From assembly GCF_014898075.1 (NCBI RefSeq), contig NZ_CP062976.1:1674001-1738000 (forward strand): 64,000 bases of DNA. The letters are read 5' to 3'. This DNA is from Neisseria yangbaofengii. GTDB lineage: Bacteria; Pseudomonadota; Gammaproteobacteria; Burkholderiales; Neisseriaceae. Shown here in pieces: positions 32,076 through 39,733 of this stretch; within the stretch, counting starts at the first letter, position 1; every line of letters begins with the position of its first letter. Below the pieces are notes generated by a model. It worked only from the letters and a program-made list of their open reading frames with translations. It was not told the origin of the DNA and ran no database searches. The translations under genes were made by a program, and so were the position numbers.

Positions 32076-33599
32076 TTAGCTTTCAACCGGAATAATGCCG
32101 ATTTTTGCCTGCCATTGTTTCGGCGCTTGGGCGTGAATCGACTCGCCGTTGCTGTCCACAGCCACGGTTACCGGCATGTCTTTGACTTCAAACTCATAAA
32201 TCGCTTCCATGCCCAATTCGGGGAATGCCAAAACTTTGGACGATTTAATGGCTTTGGCAACCAGATAGGCTGCGCCGCCGACTGCCATCAGATACACGGC
32301 TTTGTTATCGGCAATGGCTTCGCAGGTGGCTGCGCCCCGTTCGGATTTGCCGATCATGCCCAACAGGCCGGTTTGTTCCAGCATTTGGCGGGTGAATTTG
32401 TCCATACGGGTGGCGGTGGTCGGACCGGCCGGGCCGACCACTTCATCGCCCACCGGATCAACCGGGCCGACATAGTAAATCAGGCGGTTGGTAAAATCGA
32501 CGGGCAATGTTTCGCCTTTGTTCAACATATCTACCAAGCGTTTGTGAGCGGCATCACGGCCGGTGAGGATTTTACCGTTGAGCAGCAAAACATCGCCGGT
32601 TTTCCAGCTTGCAACTTCTTCTTTGGTCAGATTATCGACATCGACACGTTTGCCGTTGTCCGGGCTGTAGGTCAAATCCGGCCAGTCTTCCACGCTCGGC
32701 GGGGTCAGCTCGACAGGGCCCGAACCGTCCAATTCAAATTCGACGTGGCGGGTGGCGGCGCAGTTCGGAATCATGGCCACCGGTTTGGAAGCCGCATGGG
32801 TCGGATAATCGAGGATTTTTACGTCCAACACGGTAGTTAAACCGCCCAGACCCTGCGCACCGATGCCCAAGGCGTTCACTTTTTCAAACAGTTCCAAACG
32901 CAGGGCTTCAACTGTGCTTAATTCAGCACCGGAAGCGGCTTTTTCCTGCAATTCGTGAATATCGATATGGCTCATCAGCGATTCTTTTGCCAGCAGCGCC
33001 GCTTTTTCAGGCGTACCGCCGATACCGATACCCAAAATACCCGGCGGACACCAGCCCGCACCCATGGTCGGCACGGCTTTCAATACCCAATCGACAATGT
33101 TATCAGACGGATTGAGCATGGCGAGTTTGGATTTATTCTCTGAACCGCCGCCTTTGGCAGCGCAGGTTACTTCGACTTTATCGCCCGGCACAATGCTCAT
33201 GTGGATTACCGCAGGCGTGTTGTCTTTGGTGTTTTGGCGTTTGCCCGCAGGGTCGGCCAACACGGAAGCACGCAGGGTATTGCCTTCCCAAGTGTAGGCA
33301 CGGCGCACGCCCTCGTTTACCATTTCTTCCACGCTCATATCGCTGTCCCACCGCACATTCATGCCGACTTTCAAAAAGACGGTGGCAATGCCGGTATCTT
33401 GGCAAATCGGGCGGTGGCCTTCGGCACACATGCGGCTGTTGACCAAAATCTGCGTCATCGCATCTTTGGCCGCCGGATTTTCCTCTTTCTGCCACGCTTT
33501 ATAGAGTGCGTCGATATAGTCTTTGGGGTGGTAATAGCTGATAAACTGGAAAGCATCGCAAATGCTGCGGATGAAATCTTCTTGTTTGATGATGGTCAT
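32076..33599 (-). CDS. fumarate hydratase, class I (iron-sulfur)
   Basis: Interconverts malate and fumarate. The 507 residues cover both the alpha and beta halves of the class I enzyme. The [4Fe-4S] ligands are in ICQDTGIATVF (about residue 66), GWCPPGILGIGIGG (about 184) and IPNCAATRH (about 279). The C-terminal half has NGKILTGRDAAHKRL and YYVGPVDPVGDEVVGPAGPT. This oxygen-sensitive type suits low-oxygen metabolism. It diverges from the NADH-linked fumarate reductase-like operon, and both reactions meet at fumarate. AAGGAAC precedes the ATG. Confidence 0.93.
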   Translation of the reverse strand: MTIIKQEDFIRSICDAFQFISYYHPKDYIDALYKAWQKEENPAAKDAMTQILVNSRMCAEGHRPICQDTGIATVFLKVGMNVRWDSDMSVEEMVNEGVRRAYTWEGNTLRASVLADPAGKRQNTKDNTPAVIHMSIVPGDKVEVTCAAKGGGSENKSKLAMLNPSDNIVDWVLKAVPTMGAGWCPPGILGIGIGGTPEKAALLAKESLMSHIDIHELQEKAASGAELSTVEALRLELFEKVNALGIGAQGLGGLTTVLDVKILDYPTHAASKPVAMIPNCAATRHVEFELDGSGPVELTPPSVEDWPDLTYSPDNGKRVDVDNLTKEEVASWKTGDVLLLNGKILTGRDAAHKRLVDMLNKGETLPVDFTNRLIYYVGPVDPVGDEVVGPAGPTTATRMDKFTRQMLEQTGLLGMIGKSERGAATCEAIADNKAVYLMAVGGAAYLVAKAIKSSKVLAFPELGMEAIYEFEVKDMPVTVAVDSNGESIHAQAPKQWQAKIGIIPVES

Positions 33600-34421
33600 G
33601 GCAGTTCCTTTTTAGATAAAAAAGTTTGGTTTGTGTTGTTTTGGGCAGAACCTGTTTTCAGACGGCCTATTTGTAGGCTGTATAGTGCTTGTTTTTAAGG
33701 CAGAAAAACAGTCTGTATTTGCTAATCTTTTGATTTAACTTCAATTTAATAATTGATAAATTCACTCGGAATTTGAGAACATAAATCTTTTATCTGCATA
33801 TCAATTTGGAATAATCTTACATTTCATCAAGGCAAGGGTTAAACTTTGCCTATGCCACCCAATAAATCGAATACCGGGCCGTTTTCAAGCCTAATTCGCT
33901 ATCATTCTGTTTTCAGATGGCATTTTGCTATAATTTAAACTACATAATCGCAAAATATTTGTCATCTTTTTAATAACAGTATTTGACCAACATCAAATTA
34001 CATGCGATTAATGAAATTAAATAACATAGTCATACGCCAGCCCTAAATTTCATTTTTTATAATAATATTCAATTAATTATGAAAATTTCCGATTTATAAA
34101 TAATGATATTTATTCTTAAAAATAACCCTGTTTTTCCTGATTTCCCAGTTATCATGAAATTATTTTTCTTTGATAATCAGTTTTTTAGTGTCCAGACGGC
34201 TGAAATCACGCTTTTTTTTGTTCACAACCCTTCAAACGGCCTCTCCGCCTCTCCCCGCCATCCAATCACCTTCGATTTCTGCTACACTTATCCCATTGAA
34301 TAAGCCTTGATTTATAACGCAAAATTCCTGACAAATTTACTCAGGCTTTTAAAATCAAAGTCGTGTAATAAAAATACAAAATAACACACCCCCATTACTT
34401 TTTTTCAACAGGACACAACCC
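33600..34421. promoter_or_regulatory. long AT-rich control region between fumarase and the reductase operon
   Basis: About 820 bases, much richer in A+T than the genes around it. Signals seen: an extended -10 TGCTATAAT at 33926-33934, an FNR-like box at 33983-33996 and degenerate uptake sequences near 33656-33668 and 34191-34200. A 66-codon frame at 34103-34303 has no ribosome site or recognisable content and is not called. Confidence 0.5.
33983..33996. promoter_or_regulatory. FNR/CRP-type box TTGAC-N4-ATCAA
   Basis: TTGACCAACATCAA differs from the FNR consensus TTGAT-N4-ATCAA at one base. It is 384 bases upstream of the fumarase start and 426 bases upstream of the reductase operon. A weak -10-like TAACAT at 34022-34027 would place it near -43 of a rightward transcript. 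Confidence 0.5.
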
Positions 34422-35057
34422 ATGAGTGATTTGATTACCCTCACCATCGACGGCCACGAAGTACACGCTTCGCCCGACTCGTCCATTATTCAGGCCTATG
34501 CCCGTGCCGGCTGTGCCATTACCGCCAACGTCGGCTGTATGGGTCAAGGCGTATGCGGCTCGTGCCGCTGCATGGTACGCAAAGAAGGCGAACGCGATGT
34601 CACCACCGCCCTTGCCTGCGAAACCAAAGTCGAAGCCGGTATGCAGGTAAGCTTTATTGATTACTTTATCCCCGAGCATATTCAATATTACGACATCAAA
34701 GAAATCGGTGACGGCTGGAACTGGCTCGACGACACTGCCAAATCTTTCCCCGAAGCACAAAACTGCCGCCACTGCGGCGGTTGCAACCGCGCCTGCCCGA
34801 AAGGCCTGCAAGTCGAAAACGGCGTGGCGCAAGTGGTATTGGGCGATTTCGGAGCAGCAGCCGACACCTTCGACCAATGTGTGATGTGCAATTTATGCAC
34901 GCTTGCCTGCCCGGAACACATCCGTCCCAATCATCTGGGCTTGTTTGCGCGCCGCATGAAAGCCGCGCGCACGCTGCGCCCGGTAGATTTAATGCGTCGC
35001 CTGCGCGAAATCGACAGCGGCAAAATGCGCGTGGAATTTGAAGAGGAGGCCGTCTGA
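34422..35057 (+). CDS. SdhB/FrdB-like iron-sulfur subunit
   Basis: A 211-residue electron carrier. Residues 1-80 form a [2Fe-2S] beta-grasp domain with Cys in VGCMGQGVCGSCRCM and a later Cys in ALACET. Residues 110-170 form an alpha-helical ferredoxin with two complete sets, CRHCGGCNRACP and CVMCNLCTLACP. This equals SdhB/FrdB in layout, except that both C-terminal clusters have four Cys. It would pass electrons between the NuoF-like and flavoprotein subunits. First gene of the operon. It ends EEEAV through a DUS that also separates it from the next ATG by one base. No SdhC/SdhD-like membrane anchor is encoded nearby. Confidence 0.85.
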   Translation: MSDLITLTIDGHEVHASPDSSIIQAYARAGCAITANVGCMGQGVCGSCRCMVRKEGERDVTTALACETKVEAGMQVSFIDYFIPEHIQYYDIKEIGDGWNWLDDTAKSFPEAQNCRHCGGCNRACPKGLQVENGVAQVVLGDFGAAADTFDQCVMCNLCTLACPEHIRPNHLGLFARRMKAARTLRPVDLMRRLREIDSGKMRVEFEEEAV

Positions 35058-35058
35058 A

Positions 35059-36687
35059 ATGGAAAAGCAAGTAACAGGTATTGATTACGAAACCGCATTG
35101 GCCAATCTGCGTGAATCATCATTGGAAATGCGCACCGATTTGCCGCCGAAAGACGAATTATTAAGCCGCTTCCACCCCGATTACCAACCGAGCGCACGCG
35201 TGAAGCTGCCGATCGGTCCGAATGCCGGCGACTATTGCCATCCTGATTTGGCCAAACTCTTAATCAGCCGGCCTTTGATTGACGATTACGATTTATCGCG
35301 CGCCGGACACGTCAACACCGATGTACTGGTGATTGGCGGCGGCGGTGCAGGTGCGGCGGCGGCTTTGTCGGCCAGTGAAACCGGCGCCCGCGTGATGATG
35401 GCGAACAAACTGCGTATCGGCGACAGCAATACCGTGATGGCCGAAGGCGGCATTCAAGCAGCAGTCGGCGCGGAAGACAGTCTGCAACAACACTTTGACG
35501 ATACCATCAAAGGCGGCCACAACGCAGCGAAAAAAGCCTTGGTTGCACAAATGGTGACTGATGCACCATCGGCCATCCGTTGGCTGATTGGCTTGGGCAT
35601 GACCTTCGATTTGGCGCAAGGCGCCGACAGCAACGGCCATTTGAGCCGCAAACGCGCCGGCGGCACCACCGTACCGCGCATTCTGCACTACCGCGACTTT
35701 ACCGGCCTGGAAATGATGCGCGTGTTGCGTGAAGCGGTGGAGCTTGATGAAAACATCACCCAGCTCAACCGCCATCCGGCCATTGAATTGTTGTCTGACG
35801 AACACGGCCGCTGCGTGGGTGCGATTTTGTACGATTTGGAAAAACGCAGCCTGATGTTGGTACACGCCAAAGCCGTGGTGCTGGCAACCGGCGGTTCAGG
35901 CCGCCTGCACTTGCAGGGGTTTGCCACGTCCAACCACTATGGTGCAACCGCTGATGGTTTGGTGATGGCCTACCGCATCGGCGTGAAATTGCGCGATGTC
36001 GATTCCTTCCAATACCACCCGACCGGAGTGGCGCATCCGCCGTATTTGGCCGGTGCTTTGATTTCGGAAGCCGTGCGTTCGGCCGGTACTAAATTGGTCA
36101 ACGGTTTGGGCGAGCGTTTTGTCGATGAACTGCAACCCCGCGACATCGTCGCCGCCGCGATTTTGCGCGAAGTGGCCGAAGGCCGCGGCGTGGTGCGCGA
36201 CGGTCAAGTGGGCGTGTTCTTGGATACCCCGCGCCTGATTGAAAACGATCCCGAGGTGTTGAACCGTTTGGTCACTTTAGGCCACGTCGCCCACAAATGC
36301 GGCGTGAATCCGAAAGTGGAACCGATGATGGTTCACCCGACGCTGCACTACCAAAACGGTGGCATAGAAATCAACAGCGACGGCTCGACCACCGTACCGG
36401 GTTTATATGCGGCAGGCGAAATCACCGGCGGCATTCACGGCCGCAACCGATTGATGGGTAATGCCCTGCTCGACATCATCAGCTTCGGCCGGCGTGCCGG
36501 CGCGGCAGCGGCCAACTGCGGCTTACCTTTAAAAAAAGTGCGCGGCGGTGTCGATCATGTGCATGATTTGCAACGTGAAATGACACGCGCCGGTTTGACC
36601 GGCGATATCAAAGCTCCGGTATTGTATCCGGATTACGGTACATTCGATTTACGCGAACACGCAGGCTTGCAGGAGATGCAATCATGA
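35059..36687 (+). CDS. SdhA/FrdA-like flavoprotein, probable fumarate reductase subunit
   Basis: A 542-residue FAD enzyme. The dinucleotide fold VLVIGGGGAGAAAA is near residue 90, and AEGGIQAAVG follows. The His that binds FAD covalently in SdhA/FrdA is replaced by Asn124 (DSNTVMAEGG), so FAD should be non-covalent. Substrate residues are kept: FQYHPTG (His about 320), LQPRD (Arg about 361), HPTLHY and GRNRLMGNALL. E. coli FrdA variants lacking the covalent His still reduce fumarate but oxidise succinate poorly, so this enzyme probably works as a reductase. L-aspartate oxidase is an alternative, but the iron-sulfur partner argues against it. Start at 35059 after GAGGAGG. Overlaps the next gene by 4 bases. 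Confidence 0.8.
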   Translation: MEKQVTGIDYETALANLRESSLEMRTDLPPKDELLSRFHPDYQPSARVKLPIGPNAGDYCHPDLAKLLISRPLIDDYDLSRAGHVNTDVLVIGGGGAGAAAALSASETGARVMMANKLRIGDSNTVMAEGGIQAAVGAEDSLQQHFDDTIKGGHNAAKKALVAQMVTDAPSAIRWLIGLGMTFDLAQGADSNGHLSRKRAGGTTVPRILHYRDFTGLEMMRVLREAVELDENITQLNRHPAIELLSDEHGRCVGAILYDLEKRSLMLVHAKAVVLATGGSGRLHLQGFATSNHYGATADGLVMAYRIGVKLRDVDSFQYHPTGVAHPPYLAGALISEAVRSAGTKLVNGLGERFVDELQPRDIVAAAILREVAEGRGVVRDGQVGVFLDTPRLIENDPEVLNRLVTLGHVAHKCGVNPKVEPMMVHPTLHYQNGGIEINSDGSTTVPGLYAAGEITGGIHGRNRLMGNALLDIISFGRRAGAAAANCGLPLKKVRGGVDHVHDLQREMTRAGLTGDIKAPVLYPDYGTFDLREHAGLQEMQS

Positions 36688-37940
36688 ACCAGGCCAACCA
36701 AAATTTATTACACCCTGCCCGCCGGGTGGGCGCGGATTTAGCCGCTTGGCGCAATGTCGGCGGCGGCGAAGGCTTACTGGCGGCGTTGGCCGACCCGCAA
36801 AATATTGTGTCCAAGCTGCAAGAAGCCAACTTGTGCGGCATGGGCGGCGCCGGTTTCCCGACTTGGCGAAAATGGGAAGCGGCAGTCGCAGCGCAAAGCA
36901 AAAACGGCGACAAATACGTCGTGTGCAACGCCAATGAAGACGAACCGGGCACTTTTAAAGACCGTGTCTTACTGGCGCAAACCCCGCACCAAGTAATTGA
37001 AGGCGTATTGATTGCGGCGGTAGCCTGCCGCGCCAACAAAGCGGTGTTGTATGTGAACCCGCATCAAACCGAATCGATTGCTTCGTTGGCTCCGGCGATT
37101 GAGCAATGGAAACAAAGTGATTTGTTTATCCGCATTGAAAATTATCTCGGCAAGCCGTTGGATTTGCAGCTGGTGGAAACATCCGGCCGCTACATCGGCG
37201 GTGAAGAAACCGCGGTGATTTCGTGGTTGGAAGGCGGTTTCCCGTTCCCGCGCCGCAAGCCGCCATTCCCTGCCGAAAGCGGTGTCAACGGCGAACCGAC
37301 ACTGATTAACAACACCGAAACCTTCGCCAATATTCCGCAGATTTTGGCCAAAGGCGCAGAATGGTACCGCAACTTAGGTTTGGGCGATGCGGTCGGCACC
37401 AAACTGTATTCGTTATCGGGCGACGTGTTGAACCCGGGCTTATACGAATTGCCGATGGGCACCACACTTTATACGCTGATTTTCGAGTACGGAGGCGGTA
37501 TGCTCGAAGGCCGCACCTTCAAGGCCGTGTTTACCGGCGGCCCGTCAAATACCTTGCTGACGGCTAAAGATTTGGATGTACCGCTGGATTTTGTGTCCGT
37601 GCGCGAACGCAAATCCAGCCTCGGTACCGGTGCGATGATTGTGATTTCGGAAGGCACCAGTGTGGTGCGCAAGGTGTCGGAATACGTGGAATTTTTCGCA
37701 GCCAATTCTTGCGGCCAATGCCCACCATGCAAAGGCGGTACGTTCCAACTGTCGCGCCTGCTCAACCGTGTGGACACCGGCATCGGTACCGCTGACGACT
37801 TGCGCGCTTTACAAAGCCTGTGCCAACTGCTGCCGAAAAGCGGCCGCTGCGGCTTGATTGACGGCGCGGTCACCGTATTGCAAAGCTCATTGCGCACCTT
37901 CCCTGAAGAATACGGTTTGGCACCGAACGAGCACGAGTAA
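36684..37940 (+). CDS. NuoF-like NADH-binding flavoprotein subunit
   Basis: A 418-residue homologue of the 51-kDa subunit of complex I. The FMN/NADH site has GMGGAGFPTWRKWE near residue 50 and CNANEDEPGTFKDR near 90, then GRYIGGEETAVISWLEG near 170, where NuoF usually has a Cys. The C-terminal [4Fe-4S] ligands are CGQCPPC and a Cys in SGRCGLIDG. It would accept a hydride from NADH on FMN and feed the iron-sulfur subunit. Its NuoE partner and the rest of complex I are not here, so it belongs to this three-gene enzyme. It overlaps the flavoprotein gene (ATGA). Confidence 0.85.
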   Translation: MNQANQNLLHPARRVGADLAAWRNVGGGEGLLAALADPQNIVSKLQEANLCGMGGAGFPTWRKWEAAVAAQSKNGDKYVVCNANEDEPGTFKDRVLLAQTPHQVIEGVLIAAVACRANKAVLYVNPHQTESIASLAPAIEQWKQSDLFIRIENYLGKPLDLQLVETSGRYIGGEETAVISWLEGGFPFPRRKPPFPAESGVNGEPTLINNTETFANIPQILAKGAEWYRNLGLGDAVGTKLYSLSGDVLNPGLYELPMGTTLYTLIFEYGGGMLEGRTFKAVFTGGPSNTLLTAKDLDVPLDFVSVRERKSSLGTGAMIVISEGTSVVRKVSEYVEFFAANSCGQCPPCKGGTFQLSRLLNRVDTGIGTADDLRALQSLCQLLPKSGRCGLIDGAVTVLQSSLRTFPEEYGLAPNEHE

Positions 37941-38251
37941 ACCTACCTTTCAGACGGCCTTTAAACCATGCATTGTCAAAAAGACCGTCTGAAAATTGAT
38001 GTATGTCATTAATCCTTTTGCGTTTGCTCACGATTTCAGACGGCCTCGAAGTTTTGCGCTGCGATGCCGCCCGAATCGCTACCAAACATAAAAACCACAC
38101 CAAAACAGACTGCCCGGTTTCTTTTAAGGCCGTCTGAAAACATAAGAAAAACATCAAACTGCACATTCCTTTAATCTTTCGGACGGCCTGGTGATTTAAA
38201 ACAAGGCCGTCTGAAAACAGTTTTGACGATACTTCTGATTGGAGATGAAAC
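37941..38251. repeat. gap packed with uptake sequences
   Basis: A 311-base gap with an imperfect inverted pair at 37948-37994, single copies at about 38034-38045 and 38128-38140, a degenerate TTTCGGACGGCC near 38177 and another at about 38203-38214. Only the first pair looks like a terminator for the reductase operon. The transporter gene is preceded by GGAGATGAAAC. Confidence 0.65.
37948..37994. terminator. imperfect DUS hairpin after the reductase operon
   Basis: TTTCAGACGGCCTTT and AAAGACCGTCTGAAA around a 17-base loop. One arm has GACC instead of GGCC. Confidence 0.6.
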
Positions 38252-39733
38252 ATGGGTTTTAAACCTATCCCTGCGGCAGTCGCGCTGGCGCTGGCGCTGC
38301 TGATTTGGTTCGGCATTCCGGTGCCGGAAGGCGTGTCACCGCAAGCGTGGCATTTGTTGGCTTTGTTTGTCGGCATCATTGCGGGCATTATCGGTAAAGC
38401 CATGCCGATTGGCGCGATGGCGATGCTGGCGATTACCTTGGTGGCACTCACCGGCATAACCGTACCTGAATTGGTTGACGGCGAACCGGTGAAAAATCCG
38501 GCCGGCCAAGCCATGAAAGATGCTTTGAGCAGCTTGAATAACTCGCTGATTTGGATGATTGGCGTCGCCATCATGATTTCACGCGGCCTGTTGAAAACCG
38601 GCTTGGGCGCGCGCATCGGTTATCTGTTGATTTCATGGTTCGGCAAACGCACCTTGGGCGTGGGCTACAGCTTGGCGATTGCCGATCTGTTTATCGCACC
38701 GGTCACCCCGAGCAACACCGCACGCGGCGGCGCGATTGTGCACCCGATTATGAAATCCATTGCCTTGAGCTTTGATTCCAATCCGGAAAACGGCACCGAA
38801 GGCAAAATCGGCAAATATCTGGCCTTGGTCAACTACCATGCCAACATCATCACCTGCTGTATCTTCATCACCGCCACCGCGCCTAACCCTTTGGTGGTCG
38901 AGCTGGTTGCCAAAGCCACCAATTCCGACATCCACCTGACTTGGGGCACTTGGTTTACGGCGATGGTCGTGCCGGGTTTGACCGCCTTGCTGATTATGCC
39001 TTTGGTGCTGTATTTCCTGTATCCGCCTGAAATCAAGCAAACACCGAACGCCACTTCTTTGGCTAAAGAAGAATTGCACAAAATGGGCCCGATGCAGCGC
39101 AACGAAAAAATCATGTTGGCGATTTTCTTGCTGCTGCTGGCATTGTGGGCGGGCGTGCCGGAAATGCTGTTCGGCGTGAAAATCAACGCAACTGCCACCA
39201 CTTTCTTAGGCTTTTCATTGTGTCTGCTCACCGGCGTATTGACTTGGGAAGATGCGTTGAAAGAAAAAGGCGCGTGGGATACTATTGTTTGGTTTGCCGC
39301 CTTGGTGATGATGGCCAACTTCTTAAACAAACTGGGTTTAATCGGCTGGCTGTCTGATTACCTGCAAGCCGGTATTTCCGGCATGGGCTTGGATTGGGTC
39401 GGCGGCTGTGCCTTATTGGTGGCGGCTTATGTGTATTCACACTATATGTTCGCCAGCGGCACCGCCCACGTTACCGCCATGTTCGGCGCATTCTACGCCG
39501 CAGGTTTAGCCTTGGGCGCGCCGCCTATGCTGTTTGCCTTGGTGATGGCCGCTTCGACCGGCATCATGATGTCGCTCACCCACTACGCTTCCGGTTCGTC
39601 ACCGGTGATTTACGGCTCCAATTTCGTCACCATGCAAGAATGGTGGAAAGCGGGCTTTATCATGAGTGTGTTGGAATTGCTGATTTTCGGCACCATCGGC
39701 ATTATGTGGTGGAAGGTGTTGGGTTACTGGTAA
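38252..39733 (+). CDS. DASS-family anion/dicarboxylate transporter
   Basis: A 493-residue inner-membrane carrier with about twelve hydrophobic segments. The DASS (SLC13-like) signatures are SLNNSLIWMIGVAIMISRG, TPSNTARGGAI, TATAPNPLV and, in the second half, GTAHVTAMFGAF and GSSPVIYGSNF. The two SNT/TAP-type repeats form the substrate site. It is closest to the 2-oxoglutarate/malate and CitT-like bacterial branch. Next to fumarase and a fumarate reductase-like operon it probably exchanges malate or fumarate for succinate. The exact substrate and coupling (antiport or sodium symport) are not visible. Confidence 0.85.
   Translation: MGFKPIPAAVALALALLIWFGIPVPEGVSPQAWHLLALFVGIIAGIIGKAMPIGAMAMLAITLVALTGITVPELVDGEPVKNPAGQAMKDALSSLNNSLIWMIGVAIMISRGLLKTGLGARIGYLLISWFGKRTLGVGYSLAIADLFIAPVTPSNTARGGAIVHPIMKSIALSFDSNPENGTEGKIGKYLALVNYHANIITCCIFITATAPNPLVVELVAKATNSDIHLTWGTWFTAMVVPGLTALLIMPLVLYFLYPPEIKQTPNATSLAKEELHKMGPMQRNEKIMLAIFLLLLALWAGVPEMLFGVKINATATTFLGFSLCLLTGVLTWEDALKEKGAWDTIVWFAALVMMANFLNKLGLIGWLSDYLQAGISGMGLDWVGGCALLVAAYVYSHYMFASGTAHVTAMFGAFYAAGLALGAPPMLFALVMAASTGIMMSLTHYASGSSPVIYGSNFVTMQEWWKAGFIMSVLELLIFGTIGIMWWKVLGYW

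Follow-up and report, generated by a model that had tools for sequence, protein, structure and literature searches.

A predicted soluble three-subunit NADH:fumarate oxidoreductase encoded beside a dicarboxylate carrier in Neisseria yangbaofengii

Analysis of a 64,000-nucleotide stretch of Neisseria yangbaofengii DNA (contig NZ_CP062976.1, positions 1,674,001 to 1,738,000; hereafter the window), which sits in a single-contig genome of 2.65 Mb, identified three consecutive genes coding for an iron-sulfur (FeS) subunit, a fumarate reductase-type flavoprotein, and a NuoF-like NADH/FMN subunit (hereafter the trio; Table 1). With a probability of about 0.7, the trio was predicted from sequence to be a soluble three-subunit NADH:fumarate oxidoreductase, probably serving as a redox outlet supplied with C4 acids. 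The NADH-to-fumarate electron flow is supported by the invariance of the dicarboxylate site, the loss of the histidine for covalent FAD attachment, NuoF-like motifs that are intact, and genes for C4 acids neighboring the trio in distant relatives. In the proposed mechanism, the three subunits would form a complex in which the FMN of the NuoF-like subunit takes electrons from NADH. By way of the [4Fe-4S] cluster of the same subunit and then the FeS-subunit clusters (two [4Fe-4S] and one [2Fe-2S]), these would reach the non-covalent FAD of the flavoprotein, where fumarate would be reduced to succinate at a complex II-type site. In Neisseria, a fumarase would convert malate to fumarate, a DASS family exchanger would take a C4 acid in and succinate out, and a conserved FNR/CRP-type site suggests deployment at low oxygen. 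Textbook potentials give approximately -67 kJ/mol for electron transfer from NADH to fumarate, which is so strongly downhill that the reaction would be practically one-way and would dispose of NADH electrons without a quinone or membrane. An earlier interpretation of the window made without database searches (hereafter the sequence-only reading) had proposed a soluble enzyme passing electrons directly from NADH to fumarate, and the features above support this as the predicted activity.

By fold (FAD_binding_2, 237 bits) and site residues, the flavoprotein is a member of the fumarate reductase/succinate dehydrogenase flavoprotein superfamily. It scored below the cut-offs of its best NCBIfam model, TfrA (342 bits, cut-off 718), of the second-best family, NadB (TIGR00551; 290 bits, cut-off 453), and of the SdhA/FrdA model (283 bits, cut-off 567). 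An alignment of orthologues with Escherichia coli FrdA, SdhA, and NadB plus the host SdhA displayed H320, E337, R361, H430, and R464 of the dicarboxylate site as invariant in 34/34 orthologues, the aligned E. coli residues being those for substrate binding and catalysis. The covalent-FAD His of FrdA/SdhA was replaced by Asn in the same 34 sequences, all of which also carried Ala, Pro, or Val at the position of NadB Glu121. The lost histidine, the invariant dicarboxylate site, and the absent glutamate together argue for an enoate reductase of dicarboxylates, which would work mainly in the reducing direction, favoring reduction over succinate oxidation. According to a review (PMC10238741), the covalent bond makes the FAD potential approximately 100 mV higher, and succinate oxidation depends on it.

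The sequence-only reading had termed the flavoprotein SdhA/FrdA-like, which was borne out by the site residues but not by the overall architecture, as the protein has approximately 85 extra N-terminal residues and is without the SdhA/FrdA C-terminal helical domain. This extension (residues 1-85, window 35059-35310) was conserved and could dock the NuoF-like subunit; its H39-P40-D41 was kept also in three aligned rows from a sister clade described below, and C60 and D78 were invariant only when the sister-clade rows were excluded. At this locus, the nearest named relatives were Neisseria iguanae and N. weixii (95-96% identity in the flavoprotein), and the only other match to the flavoprotein in the host genome at E 0.001 was an SdhA-type protein.

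An NAD-linked L-aspartate oxidase replacing NadB in quinolinate and NAD synthesis would agree with NadB as the second-best family and with a host genome that had no NadB above the cut-off. This identity was judged exceedingly improbable and was largely refuted by the Glu121 replacement and by NadA, for which there was no match in the host and none in 13/25 Neisseria genomes with the trio, while the other 12/25 had NadA and NadB above cut-off in addition to the trio. Quinolinate synthesis was patchy in the genus, with NadA in 21/46 and NadB above cut-off in 20/46 Neisseria genomes.

The FeS subunit contained a plant-type [2Fe-2S] motif (C39, C45, C48, and C66) and two [4Fe-4S] motifs (C115-C125 and C153-C163), and these twelve cysteines were invariant in 24/24 aligned rows comprising the window, 22/34 trio loci, and one sister-clade locus. 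The last motif was a full CxxCxxCxxxCP, compared to the [3Fe-4S] type of motif found in SdhB/FrdB. Its earlier description as SdhB/FrdB-like applied only weakly: the E. coli FrdB query matched at E 0.063 and SdhB had no match at E 1, while a profile of the FeS family matched FrdB at 9e-6 over 30 residues. Besides FrdB by profile, the weak matches to known proteins were RnfC, CODH/ACS alpha, HoxU, and TfrB. A single-chain AF2 model of the subunit had a mean pLDDT of 78 and a pTM of 0.54.

The NuoF-like subunit was 40% identical to E. coli NuoF, and its [4Fe-4S] ligands (C343, C346, C349, and C389) and EPGTFKDR stretch were invariant in 19/19 rows (the window and 18/33 loci). Its earlier identification as an NADH/FMN subunit was upheld by the Complex1_51K and NADH_4Fe-4S domains with intact ligands and motif; an SLBB domain was borderline, scoring just over or under the Pfam cut-off. 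The chain scored below the cut-off of nuoF_fam (382 bits, cut-off 559) and a separate NuoF above it (658 bits) was encoded elsewhere in the host genome, by which the identity of a complex I fragment was rejected. Electron bifurcation was also considered, in which the NADH drop would be split at the FMN between fumarate and ferredoxin, the latter via the FeS-subunit [4Fe-4S] branch; if true, low-potential electrons would become available to heterotrophs from a malate-to-succinate route resembling fermentation. Additional FeS domains are a feature of bifurcating HydB-type proteins, and the Pfam scan of the NuoF-like chain identified no domain beyond the NuoF set, which counts against bifurcation, and such a function was considered very improbable.

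The predicted solubility of the enzyme was consistent with the gene content of the locus. At E 1, the E. coli SdhC, SdhD, FrdC, FrdD, and NuoE queries matched nothing at the locus, with a few matches of E 0.3 or worse elsewhere in the window, and no free open reading frame (ORF) of at least 100 amino acids was present in 32076-39733, as all others listed overlapped the five genes. The absence of an SdhC/D anchor noted in the sequence-only reading was thereby corroborated, and a quinol-linked complex II was rejected on the missing anchors and covalent-FAD His. With an NADH site, an FeS relay, and a fumarate site found in a membrane-free set of subunits, the trio falls by sequence into the functional class of soluble NADH-dependent fumarate reductases.

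A scan of genome contigs yielded 36 loci, of which 34 were retained; L037 was fragmentary and L038 belonged to another family (36% match). The FeS, flavoprotein, and NuoF-like order was recovered in 33/34 of the retained loci, far above chance. The contig of L022 stops inside the flavoprotein gene, and in L024 and L028 the FeS gene was only partly matched near the contig start; the NuoF-like gene was present in 33/33 trio loci whose contigs reach far enough. Ten of the trio loci belonged to the Neisseriaceae and the others included Xanthobacteraceae (Azorhizobium and Xanthobacter), Azospirillum, Rhodospirillales, the Roseomonas group, Paraburkholderia, and metagenome-assembled genomes of an Ectothiorhodospiraceae and an Acidimicrobiia member. 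The flavoprotein was found in 25/46 Neisseria genomes (E 1e-100), in G021 as a broken copy, and in 26/83 Neisseriaceae genomes from 3/12 genera under a stricter cut-off, by which G021 was excluded. This patchy spread makes presence/absence comparisons feasible. Signs of module decay were observed in three genomes: in G021 the flavoprotein gene was split in two and interrupted by stops, in G037 the carrier gene was split in two, and in G005 the flavoprotein match contained a single flagged stop.

A phylum sample of 398 genomes gave 31 matches at E 1e-110 including the own genome; the other 30 were 45-51% identical and the 20 examined carried a different gene set. In the phylogenetic tree, the trio and this sister clade were separated from FrdA/SdhA/NadB (100/100) with no more than four long-branched outgroup rows for reference, and the Neisseriaceae rows grouped together (100/100). 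The trio label needed two changes on the tree, or one change in 70% of the bootstrap trees.

The sister clade comprised 20 stretches (L073-L092) around the more distant flavoprotein matches. The FeS gene was present in 19/20, and two gene families lay 3' of the flavoprotein in 19/20, identified in the scanned L089 as succinyl-CoA ligase beta and alpha, followed by genes for 2-oxoacid:ferredoxin oxidoreductase-type subunits. A split class I fumarase (42-48% identity) was encoded directly upstream of the FeS gene in L078. A conserved upstream gene of approximately 270 amino acids, with no Pfam match in L089, occurred in 13/20 stretches. No NuoF-like gene was found in the 20 stretches at E 1e-4. 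This absence, together with the ferredoxin-linked oxidoreductase-type genes of these stretches and a flavoprotein nearest to TfrA, would agree with the same enzyme drawing on another electron partner, such as reduced ferredoxin or thiols, and with the NuoF-like subunit serving as an accessory entry point. Tfr oxidizes thiols at a CCG/HdrB-type domain, and the Pfam scan identified no such domain in the 211-amino-acid FeS subunit of the window; this and the NuoF-like gene conserved in the trio loci argue against another partner, which was considered improbable compared to the NADH-dependent enzyme.

The sequence-only reading had placed a divergent class I fumarase on one side of the trio and a DASS carrier 3' on the other, and both were found as stated. 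The two fumarase domains in one chain assign the fumarase to class I by sequence, and its solved relatives were mostly fumarate hydratases. It was encoded in 38/46 Neisseria genomes, adjoining the flavoprotein in 22/25 trio carriers and having no match in G010, G022, and G029; in G039, two equal-scoring fumarase copies flanked the trio and carrier. The role of a dedicated trio partner was weakened by its occurrence in trio-free genomes (see below), and the fumarase likely supplies fumarate without being trio-specific.

The DASS carrier gene adjoined the trio in 25/25 Neisseria genomes carrying it (hand count), and a carrier at least 74% identical was found in one trio-free Neisseria genome (G035, 77%). 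Among solved structures, the carrier matched only DiT1, DiT2.1, and LaINDY at E < 0.001, and the VcINDY entries named in PMC7553777 were absent from these matches. Part of the same article describes DiT/LaINDY as the exchanger branch of DASS, the exchange by LaINDY being called tentative by its authors (PMC7553777). From these relationships, the carrier probably takes malate or fumarate in and succinate out; the earlier suggestion of succinate export was supported by the exchanger-type relatives, with the direction of transport being a prediction. A second DASS carrier in the own genome (649236-650690) was 69% identical to the one adjacent to the trio. The electron sink had also been called self-contained, a description weakened by a fumarase that is not trio-specific and by a carrier gene set apart by inverted repeats (Table 1).

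Genes for C4-acid metabolism were also identified near the trio in relatives outside the Neisseriaceae. Roseomonas relatives L020 and L027 had a DASS gene immediately 5' of the FeS gene (in two frames in L027), and in L025 it was approximately 1 kb upstream, while L021 and L023 had weaker DASS/CitMHS carriers. L013 encoded a malic enzyme and an AspT (aspartate-alanine) antiporter above cut-offs as well as an AEC carrier, and L014 and L016 had a malic enzyme (by clustering, only L013 being scanned) with an aspartate-alanine-type antiporter nearby. Further genes included a 2-hydroxycarboxylate carrier in L015, an L-lactate dehydrogenase-type gene in L013-L015, and a dCache-type histidine kinase with a sigma-54 response regulator near the trio in L013-L016. 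The succinyl-CoA:acetate CoA-transferase ScpC was encoded directly downstream in L026 (834 bits, cut-off 500). TctC-type receptor genes in L019, L021, L029, and L030 were left out of the carrier count given below.

The palindrome in the divergent intergenic region (Table 1) was read as a candidate FNR-type site from the FNR consensus. Its TTGA-N6-TCAA core was invariant in 7/7 Neisseria regions aligned (mean column identity 69%), three of which carried it as a perfect TTGAC-N4-GTCAA palindrome. In the 600 bases 5' of the FeS gene, the core was found in the window and in 9/10 Neisseriaceae loci, 337-445 bases upstream, with L012 as the exception. Four exact cores were present in the window versus 1.5 expected (6/100 shuffles were as high); TTGAT-N4-ATCAA with up to two mismatches gave 71 window matches versus 39 expected and was too loose, so the exact core was used. 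A sigma-70 promoter scan found four candidates versus 4.5 expected, nothing above chance. The conserved site suggests that an FNR/CRP-type regulator may control the trio and lends some support to the low-oxygen use put forward in the sequence-only reading. In gonococcal anaerobic RNA-seq, the sdh genes and fumC fall anaerobically and the trio is unmentioned in the portion of the account considered (PMC3032703).

Several observations weigh against a low-oxygen NADH:fumarate oxidoreductase. In the trio flavoproteins, the position of E. coli FrdA Phe117 was Ala, Pro, or Val, and L429 and M466 near the site differed from FrdA, SdhA, and NadB, a comparison that partly falls in an indel-prone alignment stretch. 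The pocket is thus not identical and the altered positions make a bulkier enoate a possible substrate. With the architecture unchanged, mesaconate, maleate, itaconate, or a similar unsaturated dicarboxylate could be reduced with NADH in place of fumarate, and the corresponding hydroxy acid would be the substrate of the enzyme of the class I fumarase family. In favor of this alternative, several C4/C5 acids are taken by both protein families, the class I fumarases and the DASS carriers. It was nevertheless rated as rather unlikely, since all five carboxylate-binding/catalytic residues were kept; a malic enzyme, AspT, or succinyl-CoA transferase was encoded near the trio in L013, L014, L016, and L026; and the sister clade flavoprotein lies beside succinyl-CoA ligase. 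The remaining points concern the context of the proposed NADH:fumarate oxidoreductase. The fumarase was also encoded in 16/21 Neisseria genomes without the trio; a dicarboxylate/hydroxycarboxylate-type carrier was near the trio in only 9/24 non-Neisseriaceae loci, a count including four contigs of <9 kb and based on part of the neighbors; and other scanned neighbors were unrelated, e.g., glutathione synthetase, amidase, and glucokinase. The palindrome core was absent upstream of the FeS gene in 22/22 non-Neisseriaceae loci (two of the 24 were without a usable FeS start), the NuoF-like subunit had no NuoE-like partner at the locus by the E. coli NuoE query, and many relatives carrying the trio are known as aerobes, which a low-oxygen sink fits only loosely.

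Table 1. Features of the locus, numbered from the first letter of the window.
Feature	Position	Strand	Evidence or remark
Class I (Fe-S) fumarase	32076..33599	-	Divergent; Pfam Fumerase + Fumerase_C
FNR/CRP-type palindrome TTGACCAACATCAA	33983..33996	.	Divergent intergenic region; candidate anaerobic control site
FeS subunit, 211 aa	34422..35057	+	Pfam Fer2_4/Fer2 + Fer4_9 (4Fe-4S dicluster)
Fumarate reductase-type flavoprotein, predicted non-covalent FAD	35059..36687	+	Pfam FAD_binding_2, residue map
NuoF-like NADH/FMN subunit, 418 aa	36684..37940	+	Pfam Complex1_51K + NADH_4Fe-4S
Inverted DUS-type pair 3' of the NuoF-like gene	37948..37994	.	Possible terminator
Second inverted DUS-type pair, just 5' of the DASS gene	38177..38216	.	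Repeat search
DASS carrier, exchanger (DiT1/LaINDY) branch	38252..39733	+	Pfam Na_sulph_symp; TIGR00785 above cut-off

All five ORFs were located where the sequence-only reading had placed them and their Pfam domains agreed with it. The trio genes had been described as overlapping, which applied to the flavoprotein and NuoF-like genes (4 bases) but not to the FeS and flavoprotein genes, which are 1 base apart. A DNA uptake sequence (DUS) at 35049-35058 holds the TGA stop of the FeS gene and abuts the flavoprotein ATG; this element, GCCGTCTGAA, was present in 98 copies in the window versus 0.15 expected. The 311-base gap between the NuoF-like and DASS genes contained two inverted DUS-type repeats, which makes co-transcription of the carrier with the trio doubtful at the window locus.

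If the proposed function is true, the trio would represent an overlooked redox outlet in bacteria usually called respirers, with a testable succinate output, and an enzyme of interest for NADH-driven succinate production. The bacteria carrying the trio are not known for the reductive tricarboxylic acid (rTCA) cycle. The closest known counterpart by function is the fumarate reductase of Hydrogenobacter thermophilus TK-6 (Miura et al. 2008, J Bacteriol 190:7170, as cited in PMC12743299 and PMC10521678). The two are likened by description and not by sequence: by the title of that article and a statement in PMC10521678, the H. thermophilus enzyme is, like the predicted trio product, soluble, uses NADH as donor, and reduces fumarate. 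It reportedly has five subunits encoded by scattered genes, whereas the trio has three subunits in one gene cluster. The functional class is thus known from H. thermophilus, and the three-subunit, NuoF-fronted, single-cluster architecture was not found in the searched open-licence literature, whose titles and abstract openings gave no description of this subunit set in Neisseria. TfrAB of methanogens, also putative in gammaproteobacterial rTCA clusters according to part of PMC6315080, shares with the trio an FeS and flavoprotein pair and supplies the nearest flavoprotein model; the trio differs in missing the TfrA cut-off, in an FeS subunit without the thiol-oxidizing part, and in the added NuoF-like subunit. 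The sister-clade clusters resemble those of tubeworm symbionts in which rTCA genes lie with a putative tfrAB, as portrayed in portions of PMC6315080 and PMC11636981. The DASS carrier has its kin in the LaINDY and chloroplast DiT1 exchangers, its own substrate and exchange being predicted from sequence. Complex II (FrdABCD and SdhABCD) has its fold family and dicarboxylate site in common with the flavoprotein, in contrast to which the trio has no membrane subunits, a non-covalent FAD by sequence, no C-terminal helical domain, and a last FeS motif of the [4Fe-4S] type. Finally, the NuoF/diaphorase subunits of complex I, NADH-dependent hydrogenases, and formate dehydrogenases contain the same FMN/NADH/[4Fe-4S] module, which in the trio was found without a NuoE partner and joined to a fumarate reductase core. 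The trio would therefore combine the front module of complex I with the back module of complex II in a compact NADH-to-fumarate coupling that dispenses with both membrane and quinone.

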